A stretch of DNA of 64,000 nucleotides from Salinicoccus sp. Bachu38 (GTDB lineage Bacteria; Bacillota; Bacilli; Staphylococcales; Salinicoccaceae), in NCBI RefSeq assembly GCF_038561955.2, contig NZ_CP138333.2, forward strand, positions 1,922,001 to 1,986,000, read 5' to 3'. Positions within the stretch are counted from its first letter, which is position 1; each line of letters begins with the position of its first letter. Shown piece after piece: positions 5,356 through 56,638 of this stretch. Below the pieces are notes generated by a model. It did no database searches, was not told the origin of the DNA, and was given only the letters and a program-made list of their open reading frames with translations. The translations under genes were made by a program, and so were the position numbers.

Positions 5356-6819
5356 TTATTCTTCAAAAGGTTCATCCGACAACTCTTCGAAACTGAAAAT
5401 CTGAATGCCTGAAACTTCATCCAGTTCAAGTGTATAGAGCACCCTGTTCTTTCGTTTTCCTTCAGAAGTTGCATGGGAATACACACGCTCCAGGATCATT
5501 TCCTGAGGTGGCGGACTCATATAGCTGAAGCGATTATCATCAATATTGACAAGATAATTCTCATGTTCGCTGAAATCTCCATTTTCCTTATTGGCAACAA
5601 TGGCATCATAGGCTGCACTATCCGGTTCTAAATAGTGGAGCACATCATCACTTTCATCATTATAATACTGCATTAAATCATAGGCATAATGCTGGAAGTA
5701 GTTCTCGTAGTTTTTCGTAGAAATTGAGCCGATCACCCTCATTTGATAGTCGATTGCCCTGCGCGATTCATCGATTCTTGCAGGATAGCTTTCTGCTTCA
5801 GTCTCTTCCGGCAGTGTACCATTGGCGACATACTGGTCATAGGCATCCCTGACTTCTTCAACGGAGTCCAGTTCACAACGTATATTGAATTTTATAATAC
5901 ATTCCCTGGCATGTGGAGAAGCATCAGAGGCAGGTCCGTAAGCTTCATTGACATCCACTTCGTATTCGATATCTGTTTCAATCAATTCATGACTTTCAAT
6001 ACCGGTCAACTGGAGTTTGGTGGGTCCAACCGGACCATCTCCCTTACTGCTCTCGTACGTTACACGGTCACGTTCAATCCCATCGGACGAGGCGTGGGAG
6101 TATACCCTCTCAATCTGTCTCGTTCTAGGTTCACCACGCTCCGATTCTACCACTTCGGCACTGTACAGCTTATAGTCACTGAAATCACCCGATTCCTTAT
6201 TCGCTACGGTGGCTTCATACAGAGTACTGCCTTCTTCCAAATACCCGAGTGCCGCATCACTTTCACTGTTGTAGTAATTCTCAAGCTCCATCGTAAAATA
6301 ATGCGCTGTAATATCTATAGTGGACAGTGGATACTGATCGTCTGAAGGTGAAGGGCCTGTATTTTGATTATGCATTGTCATGTGAGAACCAAGTACATCT
6401 TCAAGAAATGTATCCGTTACTTCTCTTTTACCAAGCACCCCTTCATCCAATAAGCGCTGATATGCCTTCTTCTGATCATCAAGCGGTACTCCGTCACACG
6501 CCTCTCCCAGATTACTGATGATGCAACGTGTCGCCAGTACGTTTACCTGTTCTGGCTCAGATGCTTGCTCTGATGATGTATCGGACTCCGACGATTCTTC
6601 GCTGCTGGATTCTTCATCATCCGCCGACTCTTCTGTGTCTGCATTTTCTTCCGTCGTTTCCTCAGATGCTTTCTCGGTACTTTCCTCCGTTGTTTCCGCT
6701 TCAGTCGTCTCCTCTGAAACAGTTTCGCTCTCAGTCGAAGCGCTCCCTGTTTCTTCTTCTCCATTCTGGCAGCCAATCAGCATCATTAAACTGAATAAAG
6801 CAAGTAAGTATTTAAGCAT
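5356..6819 (-). CDS. Internally duplicated lipoprotein with acidic linker
   Basis: This 487-residue protein is predicted to be a lipoprotein: MLKYLLALFSLMMLIGC is a signal peptide ending in a lipobox. Residues about 20-90 are a low-complexity Glu/Ser/Thr/Asp linker. The rest consists of two similar units, each with a short CII-containing segment followed by a domain that holds YYNxESD, a leucine/tyrosine-rich helix, IVANKE(S/N)GDFS and RVYSHA(S/T)S(D/E)G. The same domain ends the lipoprotein at 53.1-54.3 kb. The ATG has AAGGGGATATT upstream. I do not recognise the function. The small alpha+beta domain could be NTF2/TcaA-C-like, but this is a guess. Confidence 0.75.
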   Translation of the reverse strand: MLKYLLALFSLMMLIGCQNGEEETGSASTESETVSEETTEAETTEESTEKASEETTEENADTEESADDEESSSEESSESDTSSEQASEPEQVNVLATRCIISNLGEACDGVPLDDQKKAYQRLLDEGVLGKREVTDTFLEDVLGSHMTMHNQNTGPSPSDDQYPLSTIDITAHYFTMELENYYNSESDAALGYLEEGSTLYEATVANKESGDFSDYKLYSAEVVESERGEPRTRQIERVYSHASSDGIERDRVTYESSKGDGPVGPTKLQLTGIESHELIETDIEYEVDVNEAYGPASDASPHARECIIKFNIRCELDSVEEVRDAYDQYVANGTLPEETEAESYPARIDESRRAIDYQMRVIGSISTKNYENYFQHYAYDLMQYYNDESDDVLHYLEPDSAAYDAIVANKENGDFSEHENYLVNIDDNRFSYMSPPPQEMILERVYSHATSEGKRKNRVLYTLELDEVSGIQIFSFEELSDEPFEE

Positions 6820-51671: not shown

Positions 51672-52085
51672 ATGGAGATTACTATAAAACGGTGCACTGG
51701 ACTACTTGATGCCCTTACACCCATCAGTCTGGAATTCAATGGTGAGATGGTAGCCTCCCTTTCAGGCTTCCAGGAAAAAATTGTACCAATCCCTGGAGAA
51801 GAAGGACAATTGAAATATGTCCAATTCATGAATCGGAGTGACCAGGTTCATGTAAAACATGGGGATGTCATTACACTCAGAAGGACCACTTTGAGCAAGA
51901 TATCAAACATGCTTTTTGTCATCACGCTTCTTTATTTCCTTTCAGCCAATATTTATATCATGTTTACTGGTACGCCTTATGATAATGAGTGGTCAGGGAT
52001 ACTGGGGTTACTGCTATTTATTGCTGTCATTATCTTAGGAGCAACTTCCCTATTCTTCAATACCTATAGACTGGTTGTAGAATAA
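51672..52085 (+). CDS. Membrane protein of unknown function
   Basis: The 137-residue protein has an N-terminal beta-rich soluble part (about 1-75, MEITIKRCTGLLDALTPISL) and two membrane segments (about 76-97 and 108-130). GAAGGAGA precedes the ATG. No family recognised. The composition is more AT-rich than in the genes to the left. Confidence 0.6.
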   Translation: MEITIKRCTGLLDALTPISLEFNGEMVASLSGFQEKIVPIPGEEGQLKYVQFMNRSDQVHVKHGDVITLRRTTLSKISNMLFVITLLYFLSANIYIMFTGTPYDNEWSGILGLLLFIAVIILGATSLFFNTYRLVVE

Positions 52086-52412: not shown

Positions 52413-52631
52413 ATGAAAACGAATCTTAAGACAGAAACATTCACCTGCCCAAGCTGCATCAAGAAGATCGAGGGGACGTTGAATAAAAGTGAAGGCGTAG
52501 ACACAGCGAAGGTACTGTTCAACTCCAGCAAGGTCAAAGTAGAACACGACGAGAACAAGATCAGCCCTGATGAAATCAAAGGACTCATCGAAAAACTCGG
52601 CTATGAAGTCGAAAGTGTCAAATCCAGCTAG
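52413..52631 (+). CDS. copZ: CopZ-like metallochaperone (HMA domain)
   Basis: The 72-residue protein is a single heavy-metal-associated domain with the metal-binding TCPSCIKKIEG (Cys about 12 and 15) near the N-terminus and GLIEKLGYEVESV at the end. CopZ-type chaperones pass Cu(I) to a P1B ATPase; a convergent P1B ATPase lies at 54.5 kb. AGGAGAGGA precedes the ATG. Its last 26 codons and terminators are repeated at 54.33 kb. The metal is inferred from the family, not proven. Confidence 0.8.
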   Translation: MKTNLKTETFTCPSCIKKIEGTLNKSEGVDTAKVLFNSSKVKVEHDENKISPDEIKGLIEKLGYEVESVKSS

Positions 52632-52644
52632 GAACGAACGTCAG

Positions 52645-52671
52645 AAACCGGACTCATGTCCGGTTTTTTTG
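52645..52671 (+). terminator. copZ terminator
   Basis: A 9-bp stem AAACCGGAC with a TCAT loop is followed by seven T residues. Confidence 0.8.
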
Positions 52672-52709
52672 TTTCCCTATGTTTATTCCATCTGTCTAGA
52701 ACACGCAGA

Positions 52710-52747
52710 AGAGTGCTGTCTGCCGGGATCCCGGCAGACAGCACTCT
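52710..52747. terminator. Perfect 38-bp palindrome
   Basis: AGAGTGCTGTCTGCCGGGA is followed immediately by its exact complement, giving a 19-bp stem without a loop. The right-hand copy at 54495-54530 has changed bases but keeps much of the pairing. Confidence 0.7.
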
Positions 52748-53086
52748 GATATATATCTTTTAAACAAAATCAAACACTCTCTTGAAAAAGCAAAATAACT
52801 GTTTCCTACTTACCTAAGGCCATTTTTTGGTTCATATATATAGGAGAGACTCTATCGCAAATATGTACATGAAACAGCCCTAGACATCTATTATGCATAA
52901 TTCATAGACTTTCATAATTATAATTTCGATTTCACTTCGGCCTAGAGACTCTATAGCTTGGAAGAGCAAGGGAAGTCTTGACCACTCCTCTATTAAGCTA
53001 GTTATAATTATATGAAAATTAATCCCAATATTTTCTAAAATTAGAGTATACTATATGTAACTATATACACAATATGAAAGTAGGTT
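52748..53086. other. AT-rich region without a gene
   Basis: No frame with a ribosome site was found. The region is clearly more AT-rich than the neighbouring copZ and ATPase genes and holds the promoter of the lipoprotein gene. Confidence 0.5.
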
Positions 53087-54322
53087 ATGGTATTGAAGAG
53101 ACTCTTGATGTTATTGATGATGTCCCTGTTCCTTGTTGCGTGTGGAAATGAAGAATCAACCTCGGAAGATGTGAGCGATGCCAGTGCCAGTGAGACTGCT
53201 GAAGAAACAGCTAAACTTGAAGAGGAAAACGAAGAACTCAAGCGCAAAAAATTGGAAAAAGAGAATGAAGAGTTGCGTAAAGATCTTGAAGAACAGAAAG
53301 AAGCGGAGGATGAAGAAAACGATAAGGAAGATGAATCAGACTCCTCCAAAGATGCACAAGAATCTGCAACAGCTTCAAAAGATTCAGATGACAATGCTTC
53401 GTTAAGTGAAAATAGAACAGCCCTTGATTTCGATATCAATTCCTCCGAGGTAAAATCCCAACTACTCGGAACCACTACTGGTAATGCAGATGGTACTTTT
53501 GCACAAGATGCAATTACTCCAGGAATGTCACAAACAGAAGTGGAAGAAAAATATGGCCCTTACGATTTTACACTCTATACTAGCGGTGCTTCTCCTGCAT
53601 TCTATGGAAACCTGGCAGTAGTATATGAGCACCGTGTCCCATTCGGCCCAGGGAATGACGGTTCTGATAATACAATTGATCCAGATTATAACTACGTAGA
53701 TTCTGTTTACTATTATGCAGGCGTTCCAGAAAGTGATTTGTATAAAGCATTAGGGGAACCAGAAAGTTATGATGATGGGTCTAAAACACATAACGGACTT
53801 CCATACTATAATTATGAAGGAGAGGGCGATGATGGCCGATATTATATTACAGGAGCTACCACTATTGGTACGCCCAACGGTCAAGTAATAGGTACAATTA
53901 AACGCAGTCTATTTGAAGAAAATCCTAATATCGAGGCTGAAGAATCTGAAGAGATCAGTGCTGATGATTTCAAGATGTATGAAGGCCTCATCAACGAGTA
54001 CCTATATCGGTTAGCTGCCTACTACAATTACACTTTAAACGATGATGAAGATGATATTTTTTATTATCTCAAAGAAGGAACTCCAGCTTACGATAAAATC
54101 ATCTCAAATAAATCCAGTGGGGATTATAAAAATCATACGACCTATGAGGTCACTTTAAATGATGTCACTGATCTAGGTAATGGGACAGTAGAGTTAGACG
54201 CCTCTAGAGTTTACTCACATGCCAGTTCAAACGGCAAAAGAGTTTCAAACGTAAATTACATTATGAGCAAAGAAACCTTTGCAATTATTGACTACACACA
54301 AGTAAGTGATACTAGCTATTAA
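53087..54322 (+). CDS. Lipoprotein with coiled coil and SHASS-type domain
   Basis: The 411-residue protein has a lipoprotein signal (MVLKRLLMLLMMSLFLVACG). A highly charged Glu/Lys heptad-like region (about 40-80) and an acidic Ser-rich linker (to about 115) follow. Then comes a middle domain with TPGMSQTEVEEKYGPYD (resembling small outer-wall SmpA/BLIP-like repeats only superficially). The C-terminal domain (about 290-405) contains LAAYYNYTLNDDEDD, IISNKSSGDY and RVYSHASSNGKR. That last domain occurs twice in the lipoprotein at 5356-6819. A TTG two codons downstream is an alternative start. It lies inside a segment bounded by direct repeats. Confidence 0.75.
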   Translation: MVLKRLLMLLMMSLFLVACGNEESTSEDVSDASASETAEETAKLEEENEELKRKKLEKENEELRKDLEEQKEAEDEENDKEDESDSSKDAQESATASKDSDDNASLSENRTALDFDINSSEVKSQLLGTTTGNADGTFAQDAITPGMSQTEVEEKYGPYDFTLYTSGASPAFYGNLAVVYEHRVPFGPGNDGSDNTIDPDYNYVDSVYYYAGVPESDLYKALGEPESYDDGSKTHNGLPYYNYEGEGDDGRYYITGATTIGTPNGQVIGTIKRSLFEENPNIEAEESEEISADDFKMYEGLINEYLYRLAAYYNYTLNDDEDDIFYYLKEGTPAYDKIISNKSSGDYKNHTTYEVTLNDVTDLGNGTVELDASRVYSHASSNGKRVSNVNYIMSKETFAIIDYTQVSDTSY

Positions 54323-54333
54323 GCGTACGGGTC

Positions 54334-54413
54334 AGAGCAAGATCAGCCCTGATGAAATCAGAGAACTTATCGAAAAACTTGGCTACGAAGTCGAGAGCGT
54401 CAAATCCAGCTAG
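54334..54413 (+). pseudogene. copZ 3'-end remnant
   Basis: Twenty-six codons read SKISPDEIRELIEKLGYEVE, then SVKSS and stop, against NKISPDEIKGLIEKLGYEVE SVKSS in intact copZ. Most base differences are synonymous, so this copy was probably part of a functional gene until recently. There is no start codon or N-terminal metal site. Confidence 0.75.
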
Positions 54414-54530
54414 GAATGAACGCCAGAAACCGGACCTCCCGCCCGGTTTCTTTTTGTTTCCATGATTTTATTTTGACTACCCAGAGAATGCAGAAGAGCG
54501 CTGTCTCCCGAAATTCCGGAGCAGCACTCT
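54414..54530 (+). repeat. Direct repeat, right copy (terminator part)
   Basis: It continues the copZ remnant: GCCAGAAACCGGAC with its complementary GCCCGGTTTC and T-run, then a degenerate version of the 38-bp palindrome (54495-54530). It ends 14 bp before the stop of the convergent ATPase gene. Confidence 0.7.
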
Positions 54531-54543
54531 TAATTTTTCTATT

Positions 54544-56439
54544 TTAACTGTAGCGTTCCTGCAGTTTCTTTTCCTTCGGTGCATGTTCCCTGATCCTCCT
54601 GAGCCGCATTGCGTTCAGGATGACGAGCAGGATGCTCACTTCGTGGATCAGCATGCCGCTGGCGAGGTGGATGTAGCCGTAAAGTACACCACCGAGCAGC
54701 AGGGCGACGGTGAGCAGTGCAATGGCTGTGTTCTGCAGTATGACCTTATAAGTCATCCTGGATATCGTGAACCCGTGTGCCAGCTGTTCCATCCTCGAGC
54801 CCATGAGCACCACGTCTGCCGTCTCCATTGCGATGTCCGTTCCGCCATGTCCCATGGCGATGCCGACGTCTGCGAATGCGAGTGCGGGTGCATCGTTGAT
54901 GCCGTCGCCGACCATCATCACCTTGCGGCCGCGCTCCTTCTCATCTTCGATATACTTCATTTTGTCGTCAGGCATGAGTTCGGCGCGGAAGCCGTCCAGT
55001 CCGAGGATGTCGCTGACCTTCTTCGCCGAGTGGTAGTTGTCCCCCGTCAGCATGACAAGCGAACCGACACCTTTATCCCGCAGTGTCTGGATGGCAGTGA
55101 AGGCATCCTGTCTGATCTTGTCCATGATGGAGACGATGCCGACGATCCGGTCGTCCCGTGCGACGAATATTGCGGTGTTGCCTGCCTTCTGCTGCTCGAT
55201 ATACTTTGCTTCAGTATCCGTATCAAGCTCAATATTGTAGTCCTCCATCAGTTTTTTGTTGCCGATGATATACTTCGCGCCTTCGAATATGCCGCTGACG
55301 CCTTTGCCTTTGATGACTTCCGCGTCTTCGACTGTATCCTTGGCCACAACAATGGATTTCGATTTCGCTTCCTTGACGATGGTCTGTCCAAGGTGATGCT
55401 CACTGACCATCTCGACATTTGCGACCTGTTTCAGGAAGTTCTCTTCATCTGTACTATCGAATATCGTGATGTCTGTTACAGTCGGGCTGCCTTCCGTCAA
55501 TGTTCCCGTCTTGTCAAAGATGACCGTGTCGACCTTCGCAAAGTTGTCGATGACCTCTCCACCCTTGATGAGAGCACCGTTTTTCGCGCCATTGCCGATG
55601 CCTGCCACATATGCGACCGGTGCACCGATGATCAGTGCGCCCGGGCATGCGATGACGAGGAACGTGATGGCGAGATGCAGGTTCCGTGTAAGGAAATAGA
55701 CGATGATTGCGAGTGCGACGATCGATGGTGTGTAGTACTGTGCGAACGTGTTGAGGAACTTCTCTGTGCCGCTCTTCCGTTCCTGCGCATCCTCCACCAG
55801 TTCGATGATCTTGGAGAAGGTCGTATCCTCCCCGACTTTCGTTGCTGTCAGTTCAATATAGCCGCTGTCCAGCACGCTGCCGCTGAAGACGTCCGCTTCC
55901 TCAGTCTTGAACCGCAGGTTGGATTCCCCTGTGATGGCGGCTTCGTTGATGTGGGCCTGGCCGCTCAGGATCGTGCCATCGACCGGCACTTTGCCGCCCG
56001 GCCTCACGATGACATGGTCGCCCGCTTCCACTTCGTCCACATCCAGTTCCATCTCTTCGTCATCCCGTATGACCGTTGCCGTTGCCGGTGCCATATCCAC
56101 GAGGGACTGGATGGAACTCCGCGTCTTATTCAGTGTCCGCTTCTCGAGGTATGCCCCGAACAGGAACAGGAATGTGACAATGGCTGCTTCCGTGTATTCC
56201 TGGATGAACATCGCCCCGATGACTGCGATGGTGATGAGGAGTTCGATGCTGAAGCTCTTCATTGTCAGTGCCATCCATGCCTTGTTGATGATTGGACCGA
56301 TTGCGGTGATTGTTGCAACGATGAAAGTGATGTTTGTGACTTCACTGTAGCCAAGTATTCTGGCCAGTATGCCGATTGAGATCAATGCGCCTGAAATGTA
56401 CATCAATTGATTTAGATGCCTATTGAACCACTTGCTCAT
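54544..56439 (-). CDS. P1B-type heavy-metal ATPase with CPG motif
   Basis: The 631-residue ATPase lacks an N-terminal HMA domain. It has about eight membrane helices, the actuator TGES (about 175), the membrane metal-site motif FLVIACPGALIIGAP (CPG instead of the usual CPC, CPH or SPC), the phosphorylated Asp in FDKTGTLT, the P1B signature EHHLGQ and the hinge GDGINDAPALAFADVG. Substrate therefore uncertain: Zn/Cd, Co, Fe or Cu are possible. The copZ-like chaperone nearby argues weakly for copper. ATG at 56439 follows GAGGTGG; a GTG lies 9 bases earlier. Confidence 0.87.
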   Translation of the reverse strand: MSKWFNRHLNQLMYISGALISIGILARILGYSEVTNITFIVATITAIGPIINKAWMALTMKSFSIELLITIAVIGAMFIQEYTEAAIVTFLFLFGAYLEKRTLNKTRSSIQSLVDMAPATATVIRDDEEMELDVDEVEAGDHVIVRPGGKVPVDGTILSGQAHINEAAITGESNLRFKTEEADVFSGSVLDSGYIELTATKVGEDTTFSKIIELVEDAQERKSGTEKFLNTFAQYYTPSIVALAIIVYFLTRNLHLAITFLVIACPGALIIGAPVAYVAGIGNGAKNGALIKGGEVIDNFAKVDTVIFDKTGTLTEGSPTVTDITIFDSTDEENFLKQVANVEMVSEHHLGQTIVKEAKSKSIVVAKDTVEDAEVIKGKGVSGIFEGAKYIIGNKKLMEDYNIELDTDTEAKYIEQQKAGNTAIFVARDDRIVGIVSIMDKIRQDAFTAIQTLRDKGVGSLVMLTGDNYHSAKKVSDILGLDGFRAELMPDDKMKYIEDEKERGRKVMMVGDGINDAPALAFADVGIAMGHGGTDIAMETADVVLMGSRMEQLAHGFTISRMTYKVILQNTAIALLTVALLLGGVLYGYIHLASGMLIHEVSILLVILNAMRLRRIREHAPKEKKLQERYS

Positions 56440-56638
56440 AAGTGCCACCTCTTCCTTTATTTTTAAATCCGTGCTTCTTGTTACTTATAATTATAGAGTC
56501 AGCACGCGATTTAAAAATTGACGCCGGTCAAGTATTGGAAGCAAGTGAAAGATTATTCGCTCAGACGGGTTACAGCATACATATGAATGAAAAAAAACAG
56601 CCATTATATATAATGGCTGACCCTTGAGGTGGAAGCTT

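Follow-up and report, generated by a model that had tools for sequence, protein, structure and literature searches.

How did a copZ 3' end come to stand twice in the same interval, on either side of a lipoprotein gene, and what is the source of the DNA between the two copies? The question arises in the genome of Salinicoccus sp. Bachu38 (G000, genus Salinicoccus, a single contig of 2.6 Mb), within the window, a stretch of 64,000 nucleotides along which plain coordinates are counted below. On the plus strand an uncharacterised gene (orf137) and an intact copZ are followed by a terminator, a palindrome, a gene remnant, the lipoprotein gene, a second copZ end, a second terminator and a second palindrome, after which a heavy-metal ATPase gene converges on them:

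51672..52085, plus strand: orf137, an uncharacterised small protein with hydrophobic stretches (recognised by eye)
52413..52631, plus strand: copZ, intact gene for an HMA-domain metallochaperone of 72 aa (PF00403, CopZ_Bs); its 3' end forms the left copy of the repeat
52643..52668, plus strand: terminator-like hairpin, left copy
52710..52747, no strand: palindrome, left copy, perfect over 38 bp; homology to the SCC copy begins right after its foot
52757..52939, plus strand: gene remnant, residues 58-118 of a 120-codon gene (phrog_7971 match), with three in-frame stops
53087..54322, plus strand: lipoprotein gene, 411 aa, with a lipobox-type LVAC (by eye), dN/dS 0.13
54339..54413, plus strand: orphan copZ 3' tail, codons 49-72 and stop, starting 16 nt past the lipoprotein stop codon
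54425..54452, plus strand: terminator-like hairpin, right copy, absent from the list of a consensus terminator scan
54493..54531, no strand: palindrome, right copy, on the ATPase side; also in G006, G007 and G009
54544..56448, minus strand: heavy-metal P-type ATPase (P1B), convergent with copZ (TIGR01525 and Pfam domains; no HMA match)

The copZ repeat and its setting

The end of copZ, its terminator and its palindrome form a direct repeat of 196 bp, 81% identical, around the AT-rich lipoprotein segment, much as the first-pass annotation of the window had described it (about 200 bp). The two copies, 52552-52747 and 54334-54530 (E 7e-46 in a whole-genome search), contain ungapped blocks of 102 nt at 90% and 69 nt at 72% identity, and copZ homology in the right copy is clear from codon 49 (54339) to a TAG stop at 54413. 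The right palindrome is imperfect and corresponds to the ATPase-side palindrome common to G006, G007 and G009. A perfect palindrome beside a terminator might look mobile, but apart from the two copies the genome-wide search returned only a self-match of the palindrome and 64 nt from the coding region of a second copZ (C1:73810), which refutes the reading of the repeat as a dispersed repetitive or transposable element and leaves it with practically no credibility. The segment is indeed AT-rich, with a GC content of 0.375 over 52748-54338 (lipoprotein gene 0.392) compared to 0.464 in the window and 0.538 in the ATPase gene, although low GC is not peculiar to it, as the intergenic DNA before copZ (0.346) and orf137 (0.399) have low values as well.

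The intact copZ shows the features of its family, an HMA domain (PF00403, E 9e-13, above the cut-off; NCBIfam CopZ_Bs, E 5e-15, below its cut-off) and a CxxC motif that reads CPSC in the translation. The ATPase matches TIGR01525 with E 4e-172 and scores 481 bits with the Cd/Zn-type model and 410 bits with the Cu-type model, both above the cut-off. The second copZ of this genome (C1:73811-74026; L108 3811-4026, minus strand), 81% identical in protein, stands before an oxidoreductase-like gene, as does the closest copZ of G010, and small serine resolvase genes are found upstream of both.

Across 24 codons the left and right copZ tails of the window differ at 7 of 72 sites, and five of the seven differences are synonymous. 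This excess is unlikely by site counts alone (P 0.004) and less so if one third of changes are taken to be synonymous (P 0.045), and some of it is owed to changes in the functional left copy. The right-tail changes, polarised by eye on the codon table, comprise three synonymous and one other with one codon undecided (P 0.11, not significant). The earlier statement that the right copy differs mainly at synonymous positions thus stands for these 24 codons, whereas the polarised counts lend little to the conclusion that it derives from a once-functional gene. In G006 and G007 the right tail has five amino acids changed, as would a dead fragment.

Content and source of the segment

The remnant belongs to a gene whose intact 120-aa product matches phrog_7971, a family of unknown function (E 1.6e-10). 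In G010 (Salinicoccus) and G017 (another genus) a phrog_7971-type gene is followed by the lipoprotein gene in the same order as in the window, and CcrA and CcrB homologs are encoded 1.5-2.1 kb upstream of the pair (CcrA, E 3e-83 and 9e-73; CcrB, E 9e-151 and 2e-100; all below the equivalog cut-offs and hence of divergent types). RadC and DUF1643 genes lie between ccrAB and the pair in both genomes, together with a DUF960 gene in G010, where Cch1 was also detected (E 1e-109, below the cut-off). Downstream of the pair both have hsdM, hsdS and hsdR genes, and rlmH is located about 8 kb from the lipoprotein gene; these islands are recognised by the linkage of ccrAB and rlmH. G027 encodes two PF07508 recombinases, RadC, DUF960, DUF1643 and a phrog_7971-type protein, and the lipoprotein gene is absent there. 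DUF960 and DUF1643 proteins are assigned to the ccr complex in the available part of PMC10581047. Because the pair stands beside ccrAB and rlmH in G010 and G017, and because of this assignment, we read 52748-54338 as a 1.6-kb fragment of an SCC-type element, comprising the lipoprotein gene and, before it, the decayed last half of the 120-codon gene that lies close to ccr. The genes of the fragment are those found just downstream of ccrAB in the cassette-type islands of G010 and G017, with the phrog_7971-type gene shortened in the window. The claim that the segment is foreign is thereby supported.

The restriction genes, and a strong hairpin that follows the lipoprotein gene in one of the G010 copies (z -8.7), support this reading, while protein scores weaken it slightly. 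At the DNA level the remnant matches G010 at 74% over 330 nt, a match that extends across the intergenic DNA as far as the lipoprotein gene (E 6e-53), and G027 with E 2e-27, compared to at best 1e-11 for a core copy (69% over 160 nt). Protein identity to the G010 copy is 54% (E 1e-13); the SCC copies of G010 and G027 score 64.7 and 66.2 bits (54%) and that of G017 49.7 bits (38%), and core chromosomal relatives, at 43-52% identity, reach 70.5 bits. It is the DNA match, then, that favours an SCC source for the remnant; on protein scores the SCC copies have no advantage. Homologs of the 120-aa protein were found in 27 of 33 family genomes, and all 27 have a copy with a RadC match nearby; the chromosomal copy adjoins that match (L151 806-1863). 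SCC-type elements also carry RadC together with a phrog_7971-type gene, which would fit a capture of this pair from the core genome.

The lipoprotein gene is under purifying selection (dN/dS 0.13), and its lipobox cysteine is invariant in all 16 aligned sequences; the product may have a role at the cell surface. Nothing was found that would point to a role of the lipoprotein in copper handling. A Pfam search of the 16 aligned homologs gave a match to TcaA_5th, an NTF2-like domain, in two of them, and a rescan of ten gave a single one (L127 residues 299-404, 19.2 bits against a cut-off of 23.6), so that an NTF2-like C-terminal part, as in TcaA, is no more than a hint from a single homolog scoring under the cut-off. 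Profile searching against solved structures yielded six weak matches (best E 0.015), which were dismissed as chance matches to the signal peptide or to coiled coils, and an AlphaFold2 model built from two sequences was set aside (pLDDT 37.7). Since no hairpin follows the gene in the window, its transcript probably ends at the copZ/ATPase-type terminators downstream. Against an SCC source, homologs without a ccr gene nearby are present in G024, which has no PF07508 match anywhere, and in G015, G018 and G019, where the 1.5-kb flanks were covered. Elsewhere in the window (5356-6819, minus strand) a 487-aa protein has two stretches related to the C-terminal part of the lipoprotein (35-36% identity) and is probably a paralogous surface protein. 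In G010 a second lipoprotein gene (78% identical) and a gene for a 610-aa heavy-metal ATPase share one 33-kb stretch before rlmH (L100 3386-9532), where metal cargo and lipoprotein do meet.

The hallmarks of an SCC element were sought at the window locus itself. Searches with ten SCC-element proteins matched only the lipoprotein in the window and only RlmH in 19 kb around the rlmH of G000, and no PF07508 recombinase was found in any of the four genomes of the Salinicoccus clade (G000, G006, G007 and G009). The segment does not adjoin rlmH (segment at C1:1974748, rlmH at C1:28351; 1.95 Mb apart along the contig, or about 0.67 Mb should that contig be circular). A sequence common to the rlmH 3' ends of G010 and G017, GAAGCRTATCATCGTTARTGCG, is missing from the rlmH 3' ends of all four clade genomes (L180-L184, L177), and the segment junctions share words of at most 8 nt with the rlmH ends of G000, G010 and G017. 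No transposase or integrase gene was seen in the segment, in agreement with the proposal that it arrived without one; its source, however, would be a ccr-bearing element, so that a recombinase is likely to figure in its history although not at this locus.

These results bear on a site-specific origin, in which an SCC-like element with its own copZ end would have used an attachment site at the copZ 3' end and later lost its recombinase and most of its cargo. A precedent is the SbCI ccrDE island in rimL, which, as far as the available text of PMC10581047 goes, lies outside rlmH and is accompanied by a second, partial homolog of its target gene, and the left and right copies of our repeat are identical across the first 22 nt of the right copy. 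At the divergence observed, however, an identical run of that length is expected about once in ten (0.9 to the 22nd), the segment breaks off inside a gene on its left, where no natural element would end, and neither the shared words nor the clade-wide lack of PF07508 recombinases speaks for such an event, which we regard as improbable. Unlike SCC elements and the ccrDE island, the window has no ccr genes, a fragment of only about 1.6 kb and copZ as the target, and no SCC-type boundary repeat was found there.

The copZ-ATPase interval in relatives

The locus was compared across 12 genomes of the genus, four of which form the clade of the window genome. The lipoprotein gene stands in the copZ-ATPase interval in three of the 12 (G000, G006 and G007), that is, in three of the four clade members, and a fourth carrier in the genus, G010, has it in its SCC-type island; relatives free of the segment at this place therefore exist. 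As the repeat is not dispersed either, neither of the two findings that the first-pass annotation had named as refuting its account came true. In G006 and G007 the order is copZ, ADH, orf137, AraC, a copZ tail from codon 59 on, terminator, remnant and lipoprotein gene, and then a copZ tail from codon 49 on, terminator, palindrome and ATPase, while G009 has copZ, ADH, orf137, Fic, palindrome and ATPase (ADH being named by eye in the clade genomes). Thus the left copZ is cut in G006 and G007, which possess two orphan tails each in addition to an intact copZ further upstream, compared to one tail in the window; a search of the G009 interval at low stringency found none. A homolog of orf137 follows copZ in these three relatives, while orf137 precedes copZ in the window, and the window genome has no close homolog of ADH (best 30%).

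The right junction, 16 nt past the lipoprotein stop and into codon 49 of copZ, is identical in the window, G006 and G007. On the left, G006 and G007 lack about 130 bp bounded by short TGTTTCC-like repeats, among it the palindrome and the start of the remnant, and as the missing stretch includes DNA homologous to the SCC copy, the left junction of the window represents the older state. The terminators of both tails in G006 and G007 are of the window's type, left resembling left and right resembling right by eye, whereas their intact copZ, like that of G009, has a terminator that differs from this type. Both tails therefore predate the split of the window from the G006/G007 lineage, or reached one of the two lineages later.

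Synonymous divergence separates two time scales. Between the window and G006/G007, dS of the lipoprotein gene (0.42) is similar to that of the ATPase gene (0.36-0.38), indicating that the separation is old. Between G006 and G007, dS is 0.012 for the lipoprotein and 0.28 for the ATPase, and a block of about 2,956 nt that begins ahead of AraC and reaches the end of the ATPase (L096 3981-6936) differs at just 15 positions (99.5% identity; bounds chosen from the data, gaps uncounted), while the 2-kb flanks on each side differ by about 7% (~93% identical). With a binomial P of 1e-70 for 15 differences at the 7% rate, such near-identity amid diverged flanks points to a recent exchange between the two species, and it is best read as a swap of the block by homologous recombination in the flanks. 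Recombination at the copZ-ATPase locus, which the first-pass annotation had invoked, is to this extent real. The AraC gene is split in G006 and a single open frame in G007, and in the ADH gene of G007 gaps of about 440 bp interrupt the reading frame, so the inserted genes are decaying (L095 6288-7171; L096 2560-3076).

The copZ of the window diverges from the intact copZ of its relatives with a dS of 0.66-0.73 (19-20 of 43 synonymous sites), compared to 0.36-0.40 for the ATPase (about 30% of synonymous sites); with only 19-20 changes, three non-independent comparisons gave Fisher P values of 0.026, 0.054 and 0.087. The excess hints that these are different copies of copZ, and it counts against the less likely reading that the window copZ is the plain ortholog of the relatives' gene, displaced by rearrangement. 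Taken together, the analysis needs a second copZ behind the arrangement, as had been proposed.

The convergent order of copZ and ATPase, suggested before as ancestral, holds within the four-genome clade but not across the genus. The two genes are linked in ten of the 12 genomes, in convergent order in four, co-directional in four (G002, G004, G008 and G011, where copZ immediately precedes the ATPase gene in the same orientation) and divergent in two (G003 and G005); in G010 they are unlinked, and G001 has neither a close copZ nor a close homolog of the window ATPase. The linkage is thus like that of other loci for CopZ and P1B ATPases, and the window differs in being convergent with a module inserted between the genes.

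How the segment may have arrived

Neither end of the SCC fragment shows homology to the copZ locus, and an anchored recombination would therefore require two illegitimate joints no matter which end held the anchor, a point against it. We lean, if only by a little, towards a recombination anchored in copZ as the event that brought the fragment there, with non-homologous joints, an orphan tail left behind and no recombinase acting at copZ. Incoming DNA and resident chromosome would each have carried a copZ, or a copZ-ATPase end, and homology would have anchored one end, while the other end would have joined without homology inside the resident copZ at codon 49. The 3' tail and terminator of the resident gene would then survive as an orphan beyond the new module. 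A repeat of the event in the lineage of G006 and G007 would have introduced the block of copZ, ADH, orf137 and AraC, cutting the left copZ at codon 59 and leaving a second orphan tail, and homologous recombination in the flanks could then pass the finished block on as an allele. The repeat, the identity of the fragment, its linkage to ccrAB and rlmH elsewhere, the tails and the near-identity of the block in two species are observed; that the joining was anchored, which way it ran and in what order the events took place we infer from the arrangements now present. We prefer this account because a single process leaves the gene intact, adds a module and strands a tail, and its repetition accounts for the two tails of G006 and G007. 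No genome intermediate between these states was found, and the position of orf137, ahead of copZ in the window, is something that the anchored model does not itself explain.

The earlier proposal of recombination between copZ loci or of duplication and loss keeps both of its branches, as a tandem duplication that was later disrupted is a serious rival and nearly as good as anchored recombination. Here copZ, terminator and palindrome would have been doubled before the ATPase, and codons 1-48 of the second copy would later have given way to the SCC fragment. This requires no special donor, agrees with the several copZ copies that exist (C1:73811; an intact gene and two tails in G006 and G007), would let both copies be functional for a time, as argued previously, and fits a left-right divergence about equal to that between species. 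It needs, on the other hand, a duplication as well as an insertion-deletion, and among the matches listed for the 12 genomes of the genus there is no tandem pair of the window copZ type; on balance we hold it less likely, though a serious possibility.

Single-crossover integration of a circle yields direct repeats on both flanks in one step, and a small circle with the SCC fragment and a copZ end would in this manner produce the observed flanks by a Campbell-type event. Such a circle must already contain both odd joints, and no record of the plasmid collection encodes a match to the lipoprotein at E 1e-5, which makes this origin most improbable. The lipoprotein likewise had no match in the phage collection.

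The anchored recombination that we prefer has its closest parallel at Rhs and type VI secretion (T6SS) effector loci, where, according to the available parts of PMC5361080 and PMC3240628, homology-facilitated illegitimate recombination leaves orphaned 3' ends. There as here, a new module stands between an intact gene and a displaced older 3' end (PMC5361080, available part), in a displacement process that the same part of that source calls rare, and the two tails of G006 and G007 may be likened to successive events of this type. In contrast to those loci, the anchor is a copper-chaperone gene instead of a toxin gene, and the mechanism proposed here is read from the anatomy of the locus. The available text of PMC10581047 does not mention the lipoprotein and has copZ only in a plasmid gene table, and in the open-access literature searched we found no account of an SCC fragment at copZ in Salinicoccus.

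More tentatively, copZ may act as a standing anchor for the capture of genes with no recombinase at the locus, making the copZ-ATPase interval a hot spot of the clade. Each module would bring a fresh copZ, cut the resident one and leave its tail, the tails would record the captures, and SCC cargo could by this route enter genomes whose rlmH end cannot accept SCC. The locus as read here would be a legible case of SCC cargo that leaves its cassette and spreads between species through homologous recombination at a metal-homeostasis locus. Orphan gene tails, it suggests, can serve as marks of capture beyond toxin loci as well. For annotators, the right-hand piece of copZ is a relic and no gene.
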